A DNA stretch of 63,773 bases from contig JAUXSD010000009.1 in the NCBI GenBank assembly GCA_030681525.1, positions 1 to 63,773 on the forward strand. Direction: 5' to 3'. This DNA comes from Solirubrobacteraceae bacterium (lineage in GTDB: Bacteria; Actinomycetota; Thermoleophilia; Solirubrobacterales; Solirubrobacteraceae). The notes under the pieces were generated by a model. It was not told where the DNA came from. It did no database searches and saw nothing but the letters and a program-made list of their open reading frames with translations. Made by a program: the position numbers and the translations under genes. Of the stretch, positions 2,187 to 11,892 are shown in pieces. Each line of letters opens with the position of its first letter. The first letter of the stretch is position 1.

Positions 2187-3962
2187 GTGTTAGGCGCAGC
2201 CGCGCCGGCCCCTTCGAGCGGCGGACGCTCGCAGCCGGCACCGACAGAGCTTCCCAAGGCGCCCACCGGGATCAGCGGCCTCGACGAGGTCACGGGCGGC
2301 GGGCTGCCACGCGGCCGGCCCACGCTCGTGTGCGGGCCCGCCGGGTGCGGCAAGACGCTCCTCGCGATGGAGTTCCTCGTCCGCGGGATCGTCGAGTTCG
2401 ACGAGCCCGGCGTGTTCGTCGCATTCGAGGAGTCCGCCGAGGACCTCGCTGCCAACGTCGCCTCGCTCGGGTTCGACCTGAGGCAGCTCGAGTCCGCCGG
2501 GGCGCTCGTGATCGATCACGTCGACGTCGCGGACGGCGTCGTGCAGGAGAGCGGGGACTGGGATCTGGACGGCCTGTTCCTGCGCCTCGGCGCCGCGATC
2601 GACGAGGTCGGCGCAACGCGCGTCGTCATCGACACGATCGAAACGCTGTTCGGGGCGTTCACGAACACCGCGCTGCTGCGCGCGGAACTGCGCCGCCTGT
2701 TCGGCTGGCTGAAGGACCGCGGCGTCACCGCGGTGATCACCGGCGAACGCGGCGACGGCAAGCTGACGCGCTACGGCATCGAGGAGTACGTCTCCGACTG
2801 CGTCATCGTGCTCGACCACCGGGTGACCGCGCAGACCTCCACGCGCCGGCTGCGGATCCTCAAGTACCGCGGCTCGCTGCACGGCACGAACGAGTACCCG
2901 TTCCTCATCGGCGCGAGCGGCATCTCGGTCCTGCCGATCACCTCGCTGGGGTTGCGCAACCACGTCTCGAAGGAGCGCATGTCGACCGGCGTGCCGCGCC
3001 TGGACGCGATGCTCGGCGACGGCGGCTACTTCAAGGGCAGCACCGTGCTCGTCAACGGCACGGCGGGCACCGGCAAATCGACCCTCGCGGCGCAGTTCTG
3101 CGACGCCACGTGCCGCCGCGGGGAGCGCGCGCTGTACTTCGCCTTCGAGGAGTCCGAGGCCGAGATCGTGCGCAACATGTGCTCGGTCGGCATCAACCTC
3201 CAGGACCCCGTCGACGCCGGCCTGCTGCGCTTCGAGTGCTTTCGCCCGAGCGTGCTCGGGCTCGAGGGCCACCTGTTCGCCATGCAGCGCTCGGTCATCG
3301 AGTTCGATCCCTCGGTCGTCATCATGGACCCCGTCTCGGACCTGCTGCGGATCGGCACGGGCGCCGACGTCTCGGCGATGCTCACGCGCCAGGTCGACTT
3401 CCTCAAGGCGCGGGGCGTCACCGCGCTGTTCACGAGCCTGAACTCCGAGGCGAACCCCGGCGAGGCCGACCAGCAGATCGCGTCGCTGGTCGACTCGTGG
3501 CTGCTCGTCAAGACGATGGAGGGCAACGGCGAGCTCAACCGGCTGCTGTACGTGCTGAAGTCGCGCGGGACCGCGCACTCCAACCAGATCCGCGAGTTCG
3601 TGCTCACGAGCCAGGGCATCGAGCTCGCCGACGTCTACGTCGGTCCGCAGGGCGTGCTCACCGGCTCTGCGCGCCAGGCCCAGGAGGCGCTCGAGCGCGC
3701 CGACGGCACCGCGCGCCTGGAGGACCTCGAGCAGCGGCGCACGAACCTCCAGCGCCGGCGCGAGGCCGTGGTGGCACGGACTGCCGCGCTGTGGCGCGAG
3801 TTCGAGGACGAGGCGGACGTCGTCGGGCAGTTGCTGAGCCACGGCTCTACCGGCGCCGAGGATCGCGCCGGACAGCGTGCCGAGCAGGGGCGGCTGCGTG
3901 GGGCCGACGCCGCCGAGCCCGCCCACGGGACCGGCGCGCCCGATCGGGGCGCCGCTCCGTGA
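2187..3962 (+). CDS. kaiC: KaiC-type two-domain RecA-like ATPase/kinase
   Basis: About 591 residues with tandem KaiC domains. CI has Walker A GPAGCGKT (residues 50-57), the catalytic glutamate pair in AFEES and Walker B VVIDTIETLF. CII has GTAGTGKST, AFEESEAEI and VVIMDPVSDLL. Alignment by eye to cyanobacterial KaiC puts the S431-T432 phosphorylation dyad at Ala-Ser here (codons 3480-3485, motif QIASLVD), so only the second phosphosite is kept, as Ser. The charged C-terminal tail is longer than the usual peptide. The start is uncertain: GTG 2187 is used, ATG 2058 is in frame but gives an Arg-rich leader. It overlaps the next gene by GTGA. No kaiA is visible. Confidence 0.88.
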   Translation: MLGAAAPAPSSGGRSQPAPTELPKAPTGISGLDEVTGGGLPRGRPTLVCGPAGCGKTLLAMEFLVRGIVEFDEPGVFVAFEESAEDLAANVASLGFDLRQLESAGALVIDHVDVADGVVQESGDWDLDGLFLRLGAAIDEVGATRVVIDTIETLFGAFTNTALLRAELRRLFGWLKDRGVTAVITGERGDGKLTRYGIEEYVSDCVIVLDHRVTAQTSTRRLRILKYRGSLHGTNEYPFLIGASGISVLPITSLGLRNHVSKERMSTGVPRLDAMLGDGGYFKGSTVLVNGTAGTGKSTLAAQFCDATCRRGERALYFAFEESEAEIVRNMCSVGINLQDPVDAGLLRFECFRPSVLGLEGHLFAMQRSVIEFDPSVVIMDPVSDLLRIGTGADVSAMLTRQVDFLKARGVTALFTSLNSEANPGEADQQIASLVDSWLLVKTMEGNGELNRLLYVLKSRGTAHSNQIREFVLTSQGIELADVYVGPQGVLTGSARQAQEALERADGTARLEDLEQRRTNLQRRREAVVARTAALWREFEDEADVVGQLLSHGSTGAEDRAGQRAEQGRLRGADAAEPAHGTGAPDRGAAP

Positions 3963-4288
3963 CCGCCGCGGCCCCGCATGCCGACTACGGCACAGCCCCG
4001 CAGACCGACGTCTGGCGGCTGTGTCTGTACGTCGCGGGGCAATCACCGCGATCGCTGCGCGCCTTCGTGAACCTCAAGGATCTCTGCGACGAGCATCTCG
4101 CGGGCCGCTACGAGATAGAGGTCATCGACCTGGTCGAGCGGCCGGCGCTCGCCCGCAGCGACGACATCCTCGCGATCCCGACGCTCGTGCGCCGCAGCCC
4201 GGCGCCGGTGCGGAAGATCATCGGCGACCTCTCGGACGGCGAACGGGTCCTCGCCGGCCTGCATCTTCAGCCGGCGCCCGTCCGATGA
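3959..4288 (+). CDS. kaiB: KaiB, canonical type
   Basis: A 109-residue KaiB with the thioredoxin-like fold signature: WRLCLYVAGQSPRSLRAF, then EVIDLVERPALA, then ILAIPTLVRRSPAPVRKIIG and DLSDGERVLAGL. These match the family's LYVAG..P.S and ATPTL..PPVR.IIGDLS blocks. In the known clock, KaiB switches fold to bind phosphorylated KaiC. The GTG start overlaps the kaiC stop (GTGA), so translation is probably coupled and the products made in fixed ratio. The length is normal for the family. Confidence 0.9.
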   Translation: MTAAAPHADYGTAPQTDVWRLCLYVAGQSPRSLRAFVNLKDLCDEHLAGRYEIEVIDLVERPALARSDDILAIPTLVRRSPAPVRKIIGDLSDGERVLAGLHLQPAPVR

Positions 4289-4650
4289 TCACCCCCTTCG
4301 CGGCCCCGCCAGACCTGCCCGGCGGCGAGCCGTACCGTCTGACGCTCTTCGTCAACGGCGCCTCCGACCTCTCGGCGCGGGCGATCGATGCGGTCACGCG
4401 GATGTGCGACGTGCACCTCAACGGGCGCTGCCACCTCACCGTCGTCGACGTTCACGACCAGCCCGATGCCGCCCTGCGCAGCCACGTGCGGGTCGTCCCG
4501 ACGCTGGTCAGGACGAGCCCGCTGCCCGTCCGCCGGCTCGCGGGCGATCTCTCGCAGACCGATCGCGTGCTCGCGATGATGCTGCCCGCGGCGTGCCTGC
4601 CATGTGACGATCCGGCGTTGCTCGGCGACGCCACAGCGGCGACACCGTGA
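4285..4650 (+). CDS. Second, divergent KaiB-like protein
   Basis: A 121-residue paralogue of its neighbour. It keeps YRLTLFVNGASDLSARAI, LTVVDVHDQPDAAL, VVPTLVRTSPLPVRRLAG and DLSQTDRVL, but has lost the LYVAG block and the invariant IIGDLSD spelling, and adds a Cys-containing C-terminal tail. ATG 4285 overlaps the kaiB stop (ATGA). It may compete with KaiB for KaiC or carry the signal to the downstream cyclic-di-GMP enzyme; both are inference. Confidence 0.78.
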   Translation: MITPFAAPPDLPGGEPYRLTLFVNGASDLSARAIDAVTRMCDVHLNGRCHLTVVDVHDQPDAALRSHVRVVPTLVRTSPLPVRRLAGDLSQTDRVLAMMLPAACLPCDDPALLGDATAATP

Positions 4651-6572
4651 CCGACCACGCGGACGCGCTGGCGCGAGTGGCGGAGGCCGAGGACACGCTG
4701 CGCGCGATCGCTGCCGGGGAGGTCGACGCGTTCGTCGTGTCCGACGACGCCCGCGGCAGCCGCATCTTCACGCTCTCGACGGCCGACCGGCCCTACCGGA
4801 TGTTCGTCGAGAACATGCGCGACGGTGCGGCGACCCTGTCGGCGAGCGGGCTGATCCTGTTCGCGAACAGGCGCCTGTCGGAGTTGCTGTCGTGCCCGCG
4901 GGAGGCGATCGTCGGCTCACCGCTGACGGCCTTCCTCGCGGACGACAGCCAGCGCGATCTCGCGCACATCCGCGGCCCGGGCGGGCAGGGCGCCACGGCC
5001 GAGCTGGAGCTCCTCGGCGCCGACGGTGTGCGCGTGCCGGTGCAGGTCGGCAGCTCGCCGCTGTCGGTCGACGGCGCCGAGCTGCTGTGCCTGACCTTCA
5101 CCGATCTCAGCGCGCACAAGGCCAAGGATCGGGAGATCAGCCGGCTGGGCCGTGCCCAGGGTGAGCGGATGGCGCAGCTGCAGGCCGCGCAGGAGGCGCT
5201 CACGGCGCAGGCGACGCACGACGCGCTGACCGGACTGCCGAACCGCGAGCTGCTCGTCGAGCGCATCGACGAGGCGATGGAGCGCTGCCGGCGCTCGCGC
5301 AAGTTCATGGCGCTGCTGTTCATCGACCTCGACCGCTTCAAGCAGGTCAACGACAACCACGGGCACGCGGCGGGCGATGTCGCCCTGCGCAGCGTCGCCG
5401 ACAAGCTCGTGGCCGTCCTGCGCCCGATGGACACGGTGGCGCGCATCGGCGGTGACGAGTTCGTCGTGCTCGCGCCCGAGATCGAGAACCAGCTCCATGC
5501 CGTCGACCTGGGCAGCCGGCTGCTCGCCGAGCTCGGCCGGCGCGTCGGCGGCGGGACGCGCGACGAGGAGCGCGTCGCCGCCAGCATCGGAATCTCCGTG
5601 TCGGCGGGCGGTCGCGGCACCGCCGAGACGCTGCTCAAGGAGGCCGACACCGCGATGTACGAGGCCAAGTCGCTCGGCGGCCGCCGCGTCGCGGTGTTCG
5701 ACGCGGCGCTCGGCCTGCAGGTGCGCCAGCGGTCTGCCGCGCGGCTTGTCCTGCAGTCGGCGCTCGACGACGAGCGCATCGTCGCCCACTACCAGCCGAT
5801 CATCGACCTCGCGAGCGGAGCGGTCGCGGGGTTCGAGGCGCTGGCGCGGATCCAGGCCGACGACGGCTCGATCACCCCGCCGTCGGCCTTCATCCCGGCC
5901 GCCGAGGAGAGCGGGCTCGTGGTACCGCTGGGCGCGCAGGTGCTGCGCATCGCACTCGAGGCGGCGGCTCGGTGGCCGACGACCGGCGTCACCGGACCGC
6001 TGAACCTCGCCGTGAACCTCTCGTCGCGGCAGTTCGAGTCCGGCGACCTGCCGACGCTGATCGCCGACGAGCTCGCCCGCTGCAGCGTCAGCGCCGGCTG
6101 CCTGCACCTCGAGCTCACCGAAACCGCGGTCATGGACCTGCACGTCGATCTGCTCGACCAGCTGCACCGCATCGCGGCCCTGGGCGTCCAGATCGGTCTT
6201 GACGATTTCGGCACCGGATACGCCTCGCTCACGCACCTGCGGCGCCTTCCGCTGACGTTCGTCAAGATCGACCAGTCGTTCATCCAGGGTCTCGGCGTCG
6301 ATCACGAGGACGAACGGATCGTCGCCGCCGTCGTCGACCTCGCCGCCAACCTCGGCCTGCGCTCGATCGCCGAGGGCGTCGAGACGACCGACCAGCTCCG
6401 GCGCCTGCGCGAGCTCGGCTGCGACCAGGCGCAGGGGTATCTGTTCGACCATCCGCTGGCGCCCGGGGACGTCCCGGAGGCGATCGAGCGCCGTGCTACG
6501 CCACCACCACGTCGGCCGCCCCCCGCCAGGCCGCCAGCCGCTCGAGCGCCCGCAGCACCGCCCGGTCGCTAG
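4647..6572 (+). CDS. PAS-GGDEF-EAL cyclic-di-GMP synthase/phosphodiesterase
   Basis: 641 residues, no membrane segment. A PAS-like sensor (about 45-155) and a short coiled coil lead into a diguanylate cyclase domain with intact GGDEF (268-272) and an intact product-inhibition site RPMD (259-262), five residues upstream as expected. The EAL domain keeps EAL (397-399), ELTET, DDFGTGYASL, VKID and EGVET, so phosphodiesterase activity is likely. Both activities may coexist and be gated by the PAS domain. The GTG start overlaps the preceding kaiB-like stop (GTGA), making this the fourth coupled cistron of the Kai operon. The Pro/Ala-rich tail overlaps the convergent gene by 77 nt. Confidence 0.9.
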   Translation: MTDHADALARVAEAEDTLRAIAAGEVDAFVVSDDARGSRIFTLSTADRPYRMFVENMRDGAATLSASGLILFANRRLSELLSCPREAIVGSPLTAFLADDSQRDLAHIRGPGGQGATAELELLGADGVRVPVQVGSSPLSVDGAELLCLTFTDLSAHKAKDREISRLGRAQGERMAQLQAAQEALTAQATHDALTGLPNRELLVERIDEAMERCRRSRKFMALLFIDLDRFKQVNDNHGHAAGDVALRSVADKLVAVLRPMDTVARIGGDEFVVLAPEIENQLHAVDLGSRLLAELGRRVGGGTRDEERVAASIGISVSAGGRGTAETLLKEADTAMYEAKSLGGRRVAVFDAALGLQVRQRSAARLVLQSALDDERIVAHYQPIIDLASGAVAGFEALARIQADDGSITPPSAFIPAAEESGLVVPLGAQVLRIALEAAARWPTTGVTGPLNLAVNLSSRQFESGDLPTLIADELARCSVSAGCLHLELTETAVMDLHVDLLDQLHRIAALGVQIGLDDFGTGYASLTHLRRLPLTFVKIDQSFIQGLGVDHEDERIVAAVVDLAANLGLRSIAEGVETTDQLRRLRELGCDQAQGYLFDHPLAPGDVPEAIERRATPPPRRPPPARPPAARAPAAPPGR

Positions 6573-9487: not shown

Positions 9488-10263
9488 GCGCTCAGCTCCT
9501 TCAGCGCGCGCTGGCGCAGCGCGACGAGCGACGGGTCGGTGCGGGCGCGCGGACGCTGCGCGGTGACGTCGAGCGCGGCGACGACGCGGCCCGGGCGCGG
9601 CGACATGACGAGCACTCGATCGGCGAGGACGATCGCCTCCTCGACGTCGTGGGTGACGAGCACGACCGTGCGCGGCTGTGCCAGCAGCGCGCCGGCCAGC
9701 CAGTCCTGCATCTCCTGTCGCGTCAGCGCGTCGAGGGCGGCGAACGGCTCGTCGAGGCACAGCACCGTGCGGCCCGACAGCAGCGTGCGCGCGAACGCGA
9801 CGCGCTGGCGCATCCCGCCCGACAGCTCGGCGGGCCGCGCGCGCTCGAAGCCGGCCAGGCCGAAGTCGCGCAGCAGCGCGGCGGCCTGCTCGCGCGCGGC
9901 GCCGCGCGGCACGCCGGCGACGATCAGCGCCAGCGCCGCGTTGTCGACGGCGCTGCGCCACGGCAGCAGCAGGTCGCGCTGCGCCATGAGCGCGGCCGGT
10001 GCGGCGTCGACGGTCCCGCTGTCCGGGGCGGTCAGCCCGCAGACGAGCTCGAGCAGCGTCGTCTTGCCGCAGCCGCTGGGTCCGACGACCGCGACGATCT
10101 CGCCGGGCCCGGCCGTCACGCTCAGCTCGCGCACGGCGGTGACCGGCTCGACCCCGCGGCGCGGCGCGGCGAAGGTCTTGGCTACCTCGCGAAGTCGCAC
10201 CGCCCCGAGTCCGGTACCCCTCTCGGCCGGCGCCTCCTCGGGCGCCCGTGTGCGCGTCAGCAT
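9484..10263 (-). CDS. thiZ: ABC transporter ATPase for thiamine precursor
   Basis: 259 residues with the complete ABC set: Walker A GPSGCGKTT, Q-loop MAQRD, signature LSGGMRQR, Walker B VLCLDEPFAALD and H-loop VTHD. It belongs to the nitrate/taurine/ThiZ subfamily. The first gene of the importer operon, it starts at ATG 10263 with AAGGGAG just upstream. That Shine-Dalgarno sequence lies in the 3' strand of the TPP aptamer, so ligand binding could block ribosome access. Confidence 0.88.
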   Translation of the reverse strand: MLTRTRAPEEAPAERGTGLGAVRLREVAKTFAAPRRGVEPVTAVRELSVTAGPGEIVAVVGPSGCGKTTLLELVCGLTAPDSGTVDAAPAALMAQRDLLLPWRSAVDNAALALIVAGVPRGAAREQAAALLRDFGLAGFERARPAELSGGMRQRVAFARTLLSGRTVLCLDEPFAALDALTRQEMQDWLAGALLAQPRTVVLVTHDVEEAIVLADRVLVMSPRPGRVVAALDVTAQRPRARTDPSLVALRQRALKELSA

Positions 10264-10266
10264 GGC

Positions 10267-10360
10267 TCCCTTGCGCGGGAATTACCCCACAGGTTCGAAG
10301 GGTCTGGATCTGGCGTGATCCATCTCAGCCGAGCGGTCGTCCTCTCAGCACCCCTGTTGC
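10267..10360 (-). promoter_or_regulatory. TPP riboswitch (THI element)
   Basis: Reading the minus strand, the region holds the conserved thiamine-pyrophosphate aptamer pieces in order: AGGGGTGC, then GGCTGAGATGG, then ACCCTTCGAACCTG, GGGTAATTCCCGCGCAAGGGA. CTGAGA and CCTTCGAACCTG are the diagnostic core motifs. The aptamer ends three nt before the ATPase start codon, with the AAGGGAG ribosome site inside its 3' strand and no separate terminator, so control is probably at translation initiation. High TPP should shut the importer off. Confidence 0.9.
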
Positions 10361-10370
10361 TTGAGGACGC

Positions 10371-10400
10371 AGCCTACCAGCGGGGTTTCGCTCCCGGCAT
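10371..10400 (-). promoter_or_regulatory. Candidate promoter of the TPP-controlled importer operon
   Basis: On the minus strand, ATGCCG (10400-10395) and TAGGCT (10376-10371) are separated by 18 nt. Transcription from here would begin at the 5' edge of the riboswitch, which fits an mRNA leader consisting only of the aptamer. Confidence 0.45.
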
Positions 10401-10596
10401 CCGGCGCCGACACGATGGACGGAAGTCAATTCGCGCAGATCGTTCAAGTAACGAGGCGGCGATGTCGATGGGGACAGACGGGAGCATTTGGAGCCTGACG
10501 TCGTTCATCGGTCGACCTGACCGAGCAACGGGGAAGCGCCATATACCTGAATCCTCCGCAACCATCCGTCGCCCCGCGACGAGCAGAGGATCGAGA
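10401..10596. other. Intergenic region between divergent importer and ice-binding-like genes
   Basis: About 200 nt, less GC-rich than its surroundings. Apart from a GAGGA ribosome site (10586-10590) for the plus-strand gene, I see no recognisable RNA, repeat or coding sequence. CATATACCT near 10541-10549 could belong to a plus-strand promoter, but no good -35 accompanies it. Confidence 0.4.
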
Positions 10597-11892
10597 ATGC
10601 AGCTTTTCTTCACGCGTACGGCCGGGGCAATTCCCGGCATCGGTCGCATCGGCCGGATGGCCGCGCTGGCGCTCGCCCTCACGCCGCTGTGCGCCGCCAC
10701 CGCATCGGCGGGTCCGAGTCCCGTACTGCTCGGGACCGCCGGCACCTACGCGGTGCTGGCAGGCTCGGGCATGACGAACACCGGCGTGAGCACGATCGAC
10801 GGCGACGTGGGCTCCTCGCCCACGCACTCCGAGACCGGCTTCGAGTCCTGTCCAGCCGGCAACTGCGTGAGCCTCACGGGGGTCAACCACAACGTCGCCG
10901 ACCCCAACGACGCCGAGACGGTGCAGGCCAAGAGCGACCTCACGACCGCCTACGACGACGCCTTCGGCCGGACGGGCGGCACGGCCATCACCGCGCCGCT
11001 CGGCGGTGGCCAGACGCTCGTCTCCGGCGTGTACACCTCCGCGACCGATGTCTTCGTGGGCGGCGACCTGACGCTCGATGCGGCCGGCGACCCGAACGCG
11101 GTCTTCATCTTCCAGGCCAGGACCGGCACGCTGACGACCGCCGCCGGGATCGCCGGCGACACCCCGAACACGCGGGTGCTGCTGACCAACGGCGCGCAGG
11201 CCTGCAACGTCTTCTGGCAGGTCGGCAGCTCGGCCACGATCTCGACGTACTCCCAGTTCGTCGGCACGATCCTCGCCGACCAGAGCATCACGGTAAACAC
11301 GCTCGCCACGCTCATCACCGGGCGGACGCTGGCGCGCAACGGCGCGGTCACGCTGGACACGAACACGATCCGCAAGGCGACGTGCTCGACGCCGAGCGGC
11401 GAGGGCGGCGGCGGCGACGACGACACGACCACCGGCGGGACGCCCGCCGCGGGCGGGACGCCCACCACCGGTGGTACGCCGGCGACCGGCGGCACACCGA
11501 GCGGCACGCTGACCCCGGGGCTCAGCGCGCTACTGACGGCGCTGGTATCGGCTCCGCTCGCGACGGCCGCGGCGCCGGACGCGACCCCGAAGGGGAGCGC
11601 CAAGATCCGCGGCCCGATCGGCGCGGTCACCGGTCCGTTCACCGTCTCCGTGACCGGGCGCGCGATCGCCAAGGTCGTGTTCTACGTCGACGGCAAGCGC
11701 CGCACGACGGTGCGCGCCAAGACCGGCCGCACCCGCTTCTCACTGCGCATCAACCCGCGTCGGCAGAGTCGCCGCGTACACCGCGTCACCGCGCGCGTGA
11801 CGTTCAGCACGTCGAGCCGGACGCGAGGCACCTCGGTCCGCGTGCTCTACCGGCGCCCCTCCGCGCCCGCGACACCGCGCTTCACGGGCTAG
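10597..11892 (+). CDS. Secreted DUF3494 ice-binding-like protein
   Basis: 431 residues. ATG 10597 follows GAGGA. A signal peptide (hydrophobic MAALALALTPLCAATASA) precedes a DUF3494 domain (about 45-250) with GTAGTYAVLAGSGMTNTG, STIDGDVGSSP, FIFQARTGTLTT and FWQVGSSATISTYSQFVGT, the beta-solenoid family that includes microbial ice-binding proteins and adhesins. A linker of GGTP repeats (11443-11505) leads to a C-terminal Ig-like domain (GAVTGPFTVSVTGRAIAKV). Ice binding is only one possibility; many members are simply surface-attached. The L,D-transpeptidase follows after 6 nt. Confidence 0.82.
   Translation: MQLFFTRTAGAIPGIGRIGRMAALALALTPLCAATASAGPSPVLLGTAGTYAVLAGSGMTNTGVSTIDGDVGSSPTHSETGFESCPAGNCVSLTGVNHNVADPNDAETVQAKSDLTTAYDDAFGRTGGTAITAPLGGGQTLVSGVYTSATDVFVGGDLTLDAAGDPNAVFIFQARTGTLTTAAGIAGDTPNTRVLLTNGAQACNVFWQVGSSATISTYSQFVGTILADQSITVNTLATLITGRTLARNGAVTLDTNTIRKATCSTPSGEGGGGDDDTTTGGTPAAGGTPTTGGTPATGGTPSGTLTPGLSALLTALVSAPLATAAAPDATPKGSAKIRGPIGAVTGPFTVSVTGRAIAKVVFYVDGKRRTTVRAKTGRTRFSLRINPRRQSRRVHRVTARVTFSTSSRTRGTSVRVLYRRPSAPATPRFTG

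Follow-up and report, generated by a model that had tools for sequence, protein, structure and literature searches.

Kai gene clusters outside cyanobacteria were described by De Luca in 2011. According to that paper (PMC3164672), in almost all kaiC-kaiB clusters other than those of cyanobacteria the gene that directly follows kaiC or kaiB encodes a histidine kinase or a GGDEF/EAL protein, and further accounts describe kaiC-B-PAS/histidine kinase operons in R. palustris and Rhodobacter (Cereibacter) sphaeroides (PMC4794148) and a kaiC-kaiB-histidine kinase-REC operon in Bradyrhizobium (PMC3899966). Here we analyse a four-gene kai operon that ends in a gene for an enzyme of cyclic-di-GMP (c-di-GMP) metabolism, located in a stretch of 63,773 nucleotides from a Solirubrobacteraceae bacterium akin to Conexibacter (contig JAUXSD010000009.1; the whole stretch is called the window). 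The most informative result is a front-end module, common to this enzyme and to the output proteins of other kai operons, which marks where the Kai state may be read.

The closest described system is the KaiBC hourglass of R. sphaeroides, whose KaiC (KaiC_RS) autophosphorylates without KaiA and is regulated via its coiled coil, as studied in strain KD131 (Pitsawong 2023, PMC10076222). The two systems are alike in having a KaiC with a long coiled-coil tail, a canonical KaiB, no KaiA and, as the third gene in R. sphaeroides, a gene encoding the same module. They differ in that R. sphaeroides has one KaiB, two phospho-serines in KaiC (Ser413 and Ser414) and an HWE-type histidine kinase, whereas the window has two KaiBs, an Ala-Ser pair and a GGDEF-EAL protein. 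The pairing of Kai with GGDEF/EAL proteins is not new, because it is already in print (PMC3164672), and a Kai system with c-di-GMP output, supported here as far as sequence reaches, is a variant of this known pairing. What this analysis adds is the common module, the two KaiB types and the loss, in most cases, of the first phospho-serine in the actinobacterial c-di-GMP branch. The available text of PMC3164672 describes neither a module common to the outputs of its clusters nor two KaiB types, and its RtaNt domain belongs to a kaiB-less group. Searches of open-access full text brought up no paper in which these outputs are said to share a module, which does not prove that there is none, and no account of KaiB classes by operon position.

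The kai operon and the conservation of its order

The operon lies on the plus strand and consists of kaiC (2187..3962; 591 amino acids from a GTG start, with an in-frame ATG at 2058 also possible), kaiB1 (3959..4288; 109 amino acids), kaiB2 (4285..4650; 121 amino acids) and a module-PAS-GGDEF-EAL gene (4647..6572; 641 amino acids). As the preliminary description of this DNA had stated, the genes overlap one another by four bases (GTGA at 3959-3962, ATGA at 4285-4288 and GTGA at 4647-4650), and each of the last three starts inside the overlap with its predecessor. Open reading frame and Pfam analysis give KaiC its CI and CII RecA-like domains, with two stretches matching the KaiC ATPase family (4.5e-105). 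The kaiB1 and kaiB2 products match Pfam KaiB (1.9e-24 and 6.9e-17), and both score below the KaiB cut-offs of NCBIfam; the fourth protein matches EAL (8.3e-68), GGDEF (1.7e-42) and PAS_9 (2.8e-06). Its GGDEF domain (5184..5741) and EAL phosphodiesterase domain (5748..6497) retain all the catalytic motifs, together with the inhibition site, that had been ascribed to them: RPMD....GGDEF (RPMD at 5421-5432, GGDEF at 5448-5462), EALAR, VNLS, ELTE, DDFGTGY, VKID, AEGVE and AQGYL. The catalytic meaning of these motifs is established knowledge, and with the GGDEF motif, inhibition site and EAL motifs intact the protein has the predicted make-up of a bifunctional enzyme that should both synthesise and degrade c-di-GMP, in agreement with its earlier identification as a c-di-GMP enzyme.

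The conservation of the order kaiC-kaiB-kaiB-GGDEF/EAL in related genomes had been set beforehand as a check, and the order does recur, more often than by chance. KaiB-family searches matched 9 of the family's 101 genomes, 20 of the order's 232 and 53 of the phylum's 396, over the curated cut-off in 8, 10 and 22 genomes, respectively; 32 regions around strong matches were examined, with weak matches, a few of which lie just above the cut-off, left out. These searches yielded 11 tandem-KaiB loci, window included. Seven of them have the exact kaiC-kaiB-kaiB-PAS-GGDEF-EAL order (the window, L058, L060, L061, L062, L077 and L080), and the other four have the same first three kai genes followed by a protein that is led by the same module and ends in a histidine kinase (L066, L067, L072) or a SpoIIE phosphatase (L068). 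The module is thus next in line in 11/11 tandem-KaiB loci; among 22 single-KaiB loci examined it occurs in four (L065, L069, L078 and, in a weaker form sited behind kaiC, L071), and a further one (L079) holds a weak module fragment only. Pooling the KaiB-search loci with the module-led loci described below gives 19 different loci with the exact four-gene order, window included, 15 of them in Actinomycetota and four in Pseudomonadota (L111, L114, L128, L166). Across loci with GGDEF outputs, four-base overlaps join kaiC to kaiB in 15/19 cases, kaiB to kaiB in 15/20 and kaiB to the output gene in 10/22. The distribution of the operon is patchy, since six other genomes of the window's genus gave no KaiB match; viral contigs scanned with KaiB1 held no relative. 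On one contig (L060:7408-7575, the same as L112:5720-5887) the second KaiB is matched over its first ~53 positions only and looks frame-broken, in an operon that is otherwise complete.

The window genome (G000; 4.56 Mb in 352 contigs, 95.29% complete, 5.35% contamination) holds two KaiB matches only, kaiB1 and kaiB2, and one full double-domain KaiC. The reported lack of KaiA also stands: its family, PF07688, has 0 matches in this 95% complete genome, with a positive S. elongatus control; in this the genome differs from a cyanobacterial KaiABC system. Upstream, the operon is bounded by a minus-strand gene for a beta-propeller protein (DUF5122), and downstream by a convergent minus-strand AlkZ-like gene whose open reading frame overlaps the last 77 bases of the operon.

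The common module and its catalytic ends

The module takes up the N-terminal ~165 residues of the fourth protein (4647..5150), as delimited by alignment, profile and model. A model made from 81 sequences (mean predicted local distance difference test score, pLDDT, 85.5) has an N-terminal helix (residues 2-22), a beta hairpin (28-42), a PAS domain (about 47-153) and a linking helix toward the catalytic part (155-167); confidence drops to a pLDDT of about 66-77 over the N-terminal helix and the hairpin. Foldseek matches this model to the PAS domains of FixL, DosP and LOV proteins. Pfam PAS matches leave out the helix and hairpin, as they begin at residue 50-64 of the protein encoded in the window and at 41-55 in eight of ten representative outputs (in L130 and L068 later PAS domains only are matched), and no matched named Pfam PAS model covers the helix and hairpin in the window protein or in these ten outputs.

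A scan of 84,980 species genomes with the aligned module residues gave 284 relatives, the best 80 of which were analysed; six of these loci repeat earlier contigs (L091=L061, L096=L058, L099=L062, L100=L077, L104=L066, L112=L060). Among these best 80 of 284, kaiB lies upstream on the same strand in 76, as two copies in 65 loci, three in one and one in 10, at a domain-to-domain spacing of 54-358 bases (922 in L108), and kaiC is within reach in 68. Three of the four loci without kaiB (L109, L147, L159) have the contig start within ~450 bases of the module, and the fourth, L098, is a true exception, weighed below. The loci come from Actinomycetota, Pseudomonadota, Thermodesulfobacteriota, Acidobacteriota, Verrucomicrobiota, Chloroflexota, Planctomycetota, Spirochaetota, Bacillota and other bacterial phyla, and from archaea (Methanoperedens, Methanosarcinales and one further archaeal record). 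Because the scan used two peptide patterns taken from kai-linked modules, the link to kai genes and the unvarying LRAI-GE-D core in the 80 loci are in part a product of selection.

Since the best 80 matched kai-linked queries, a phylum profile search and a plasmid search were made as checks; their profile and query were also built from kai-linked modules, yet they find relatives without the patterns. In the profile search of the 396 phylum genomes, the helix and hairpin are what distinguishes the module from ordinary PAS domains: among the matches listed, 11 from 10 genomes start at model position 1-2, and kai genes adjoin all of these 11 but the one in G506, while the next 20 loci, which match the PAS part only, have kai genes in 0/20 within a flank of up to 1.5 kb. 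Similarly, 72,556 plasmid records gave four module matches, with kaiC and kaiB directly upstream in all four. On the R. sphaeroides KD131 plasmid, which carries kaiC-kaiB-kinase, the kinase N-terminus is the module (99 bits), and the kinase of R. sphaeroides strain IL106 has it too (92 bits). With KaiB2 as the query, 16 plasmid records were matched, nine of which were examined: the four above, two from Cereibacter, two from Hymenobacter and one from Aquisphaera. The two Hymenobacter plasmids (L214, L215) have a KaiB gene, and neither annotation nor profile shows a kaiC within 9 kb. A regular expression finds the I-G-D core in 12 of the 14 modules outside the pattern selection, the diverged ones being L078 and L071. 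Because the E-values of our own profiles were computed on small sets, bit scores or contrasts are more reliable than these E-values.

Behind this front end the catalytic part varies. Our own profiles place the ends of the 81 modules, that of the window among them, in the classes histidine kinase (38), GGDEF-EAL (22), other (17) and truncated and unassigned (4). Ten outputs negative for histidine kinase and GGDEF by these profiles were re-examined with Pfam, which gave an HD domain with GAF in L108 (its HD-GYP character judged by eye), a sigma-54 activator in L122, HisKA_3 kinases in L117 and L140, a HisKA_2 kinase in L130, SpoIIE in L068, and PAS-only or short forms in L143, L154, L168 and L113; as HisKA_2 and HisKA_3 are found, part of the 'other' class consists of kinases of other classes. 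The GGDEF-EAL label requires six changes on the module tree, at least five of them forced by well-supported branches, with L095 (GGDEF-EAL), for example, neighbouring L097 (histidine kinase) at support 100/89; catalytic ends have therefore been exchanged on a constant front end. L146, which has GGDEF in the frame of the module and EAL in another, is classed as 'other' in the module tree and as a GGDEF output in the overlap counts above and the phosphosite counts below.

Some loci carry additional copies of these genes. L108 has a third KaiB behind its HD-domain output and a second module-kinase, L116 a third KaiB and a second module, and L134 three consecutive KaiBs; in L068, whose main output is SpoIIE, a second module protein (9806-10945; a stop-to-stop frame of 380 amino acids) lies upstream of kaiC.

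KaiC and the two KaiB types

The closest solved relative of the window KaiC is KaiC_RS (8DBA, E 1.5e-185), the best structure other than KaiC_RS reaching 4.9e-113. The alignment to KaiC_RS runs into the tail, up to residue 571, and the 78 residues past the CI-CII model (3726..3959) align to the coiled-coil tail of KaiC_RS, predicting the same extension here. The pair Ala432-Ser433 (codons at 3480..3485) aligns to Ser413-Ser414 of KaiC_RS, so that the first phospho-serine is lost and the second kept, and the window KaiC departs from the two serines of R. sphaeroides-type KaiBC. In 20 KaiCs whose loci have a GGDEF output, these two residues are AS (11), GS (2), TS (1) or SS (6), the second serine being kept in all 20; the 15 actinobacterial loci with GGDEF-EAL outputs have AS (11), GS (2), SS (1) or TS (1), that is, Ala or Gly at the first site in 13. 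The SS pair is found in 27/34 KaiCs with histidine kinase outputs and in 21/22 with other outputs. As aligned, the first of the two KaiC phospho-serines is mostly lost in the actinobacterial c-di-GMP branch, and a one-site KaiC would favour a switch or hourglass over an ordered two-site oscillator.

When 168 KaiBs are placed on a tree, well-supported branches (99/99 and 99/90) separate the 69 proteins in first position in tandem operons from the 69 in second position; this tree and the second one below have 82 columns each, and the partial copies of L112 and L110 were too short to be included. Position-specific majority residues also differ, for example Leu/Ile59, Ile/Ala61 and Arg/Lys66 in S. 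elongatus numbering. The KaiB2 that had been called divergent therefore belongs to a standing class: on this tree, first-position (KaiB-alpha) and second-position (KaiB-beta) proteins are old, distinct types. The tree rules out a recent degenerate copy as the origin of KaiB2. When three reference KaiBs were added and two long-branch rows left out, the first-position KaiBs stayed one group (100/98), with the R. sphaeroides KaiB inside, and the second-position rows no longer formed one group, as 50 of them fall in a supported 70-row set that also contains cyanobacterial and single KaiBs; the beta type may therefore have more than one origin. The cyanobacterial KaiB lies on the side of the second-position and single KaiBs, and the R. 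sphaeroides KaiB is of the first-position type. Bacteria with several KaiBs of different preferred folds, up to four copies, are known (PMC10808063).

The model of KaiB2 has thioredoxin-like topology (core pLDDT about 70-83), and its best structural match is 8FWJ, the KaiC-bound, fold-switched KaiB_RS, followed by Legionella KaiB in a thioredoxin-like state (4KUN). AlphaFold tends toward the thioredoxin-like state on deep KaiB alignments, so this match is weak evidence. Legionella pneumophila has a kai operon (Loza-Correa 2014) that resembles that of the window in its KaiB and KaiC, and a stress role is cited for it in PMC5520375. The Legionella operon reportedly lacks KaiA and adjoins a GGDEF/EAL gene. 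The KaiB2 model also resembles the thioredoxin-like N domain with which the cyanobacterial clock output protein SasA binds KaiC CI (6x61); KaiB2 is a separate gene, and Pfam finds no SasA-type fused KaiB-like domain in the fourth protein. A split-off SasA sensor domain was rejected as the main explanation of KaiB2, since a profile of second-position KaiBs gave 4e-22 to 5e-32 with the KaiB structures listed and ~3e-05 with SasA (4.9e-32 versus 2.7e-05 in direct comparison).

The preliminary description had suggested KaiB2 as a possible relay between KaiC and the c-di-GMP enzyme. In the strict form of this proposal, KaiB-beta would bind either KaiC or the enzyme, depending on state, and would be the sole partner of the module. 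Consistent with this, the KaiB beside the output in tandem operons is a type of its own (69/69 second-position rows on one side of the 99/90 branch), six single-KaiB module operons with kaiC have the beta type only (L106, L119, L142, L146, L167, L065), and in pairwise comparisons over 59 operons module distances, given those of KaiC, follow KaiB-beta (0.38) more than KaiB-alpha (0.18). Against it, the module tracks KaiC more closely (r 0.78) than either KaiB, and it stands behind kaiC and an alpha-type KaiB only in R. sphaeroides, Rhizobium, Sinorhizobium and Falsirhodobacter (by profile score) and in L069, L078 and L097. As operons with one KaiB type of either kind keep the module, a relay through KaiB2 is possible but not general. 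A dedicated relay is an unlikely explanation; what stood of the earlier claim is that KaiB2 is a real and distinct type.

From Kai state to c-di-GMP

We favour, at a probability of roughly 55%, a KaiBC timer or energy-state switch that works without KaiA, is read by the module and has c-di-GMP as its output. It builds on gene order, overlaps, intact domains and motifs, the conservation of the order, the common module and the swapped ends; binding and control are the parts that we infer. In its favour also speak the best match of KaiC to KaiC_RS, tail included, the fit of the KaiB2 model to KaiC-bound KaiB and the module distances, which correlate with those of KaiC above all. An R. sphaeroides-type KaiC with a coiled-coil tail would set its autophosphorylation and ATP hydrolysis by ATP/ADP, as is known for KaiC_RS, using one phospho-serine rather than two. 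KaiB-alpha and KaiB-beta would both bind KaiC in a state-dependent manner, as is known for KaiB_RS. The helix-hairpin-PAS module at the N-terminus of the fourth protein would read the Kai assembly, probably through direct contact with KaiC and/or KaiB, and the linking helix would pass the state to GGDEF and EAL, shifting the balance between making and breaking c-di-GMP one way or the other and perhaps serving in timing. The preliminary description thus holds for the operon, its order, the lack of KaiA and the c-di-GMP enzyme, and gives way on KaiB2 as a general relay.

Several observations weigh against this timer or switch with module readout. The module is absent from 17/22 single-KaiB loci, and full modules occur without Kai: the module-GGDEF-EAL gene of L098 (5878-7845) lacks kai neighbours within 6 kb, and the genome that it belongs to (G614) shows no KaiB above the cut-off; G506 (L201, G506:C101) has a full module and histidine kinase with no kai nearby, no KaiB-search match and no full KaiC in a metagenome-assembled genome that is 77% complete. 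Two weak near-full module matches, L202 and L203, are likewise without kai genes. In L110 (5121-5881) and L157 (5398-5937) the module and second KaiB are intact, the first KaiB is fragmented and KaiC was not found at the locus, possibly through decay of the clock part. Conversely, the two Hymenobacter plasmids and the Aquisphaera plasmid have kaiB without a full module (partial matches of at best 18-22 bits). Many loci, including most module loci, are from metagenome-assembled genomes, shared ancestry also produces distance correlations, and the overall confidence of the KaiB2 model is moderate (pLDDT 65.5). A one-phosphosite KaiC cannot run the two-site cycle of S. elongatus. The window genome has 16 GGDEF matches over the cut-off, which could buffer a local c-di-GMP effect, and no PilZ match as a c-di-GMP target; with no PilZ despite the 16 GGDEF matches, its c-di-GMP receptors may be of another kind.

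Finally, for R. sphaeroides and R. rubrum the PAS kinase next to kaiBC has been proposed to act on the input side, conveying redox or oxygen signals (PMC5520375 and PMC10931921). Applied to the window, the fourth protein would be an input whose PAS domain senses oxygen, redox or a ligand and signals to KaiBC, with c-di-GMP turnover as a side branch, and the heme PAS domains of FixL and DosP are indeed among the best Foldseek matches of the module. The module alignment (81 rows), however, has no histidine conserved at 40% of rows or more and one conserved cysteine, at position 148 in 54/81 rows, a pattern not known as a heme or flavin signature. Moreover, GGDEF-EAL, HD, SpoIIE and sigma-54 activator ends offer no obvious return route to KaiC, and we regard an input role as quite improbable. 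Least probable of all is mere co-expression, in which Kai and the c-di-GMP enzyme are active in the same condition with no physical coupling: it fits the kai-less module-GGDEF-EAL (L098) and module-kinase (G506) orphans and the overlapping stop and start codons, which suggest coupled translation rather than contact, but across phyla it is the module, and not the catalytic end, that stays beside kaiB, which an interface, more than shared regulation, would predict.

Beyond the window, we give about even odds to one output plug for KaiA-free KaiBC systems in bacteria and archaea: a helix-hairpin-PAS adapter behind the KaiBs would read the state of KaiC for interchangeable effectors (histidine kinases, diguanylate cyclase/phosphodiesterases, HD proteins, SpoIIE phosphatases and sigma-54 activators), with setting and reading split between two old KaiB types, and the window would be the c-di-GMP version, with a one-site KaiC. 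This bears on the way in which KaiBC timers that lack KaiA, SasA and RpaA influence the cell. One conserved module ahead of many effector types offers a single testable surface, also in R. sphaeroides, whose KaiC and KaiB structures are solved. If true, the proposal would link c-di-GMP, which is widely used as a signal in biofilm formation, motility and development, to a clock-type ATPase, and would suggest a role for kai genes in bacteria and archaea that lack a cyanobacterial-type clock.

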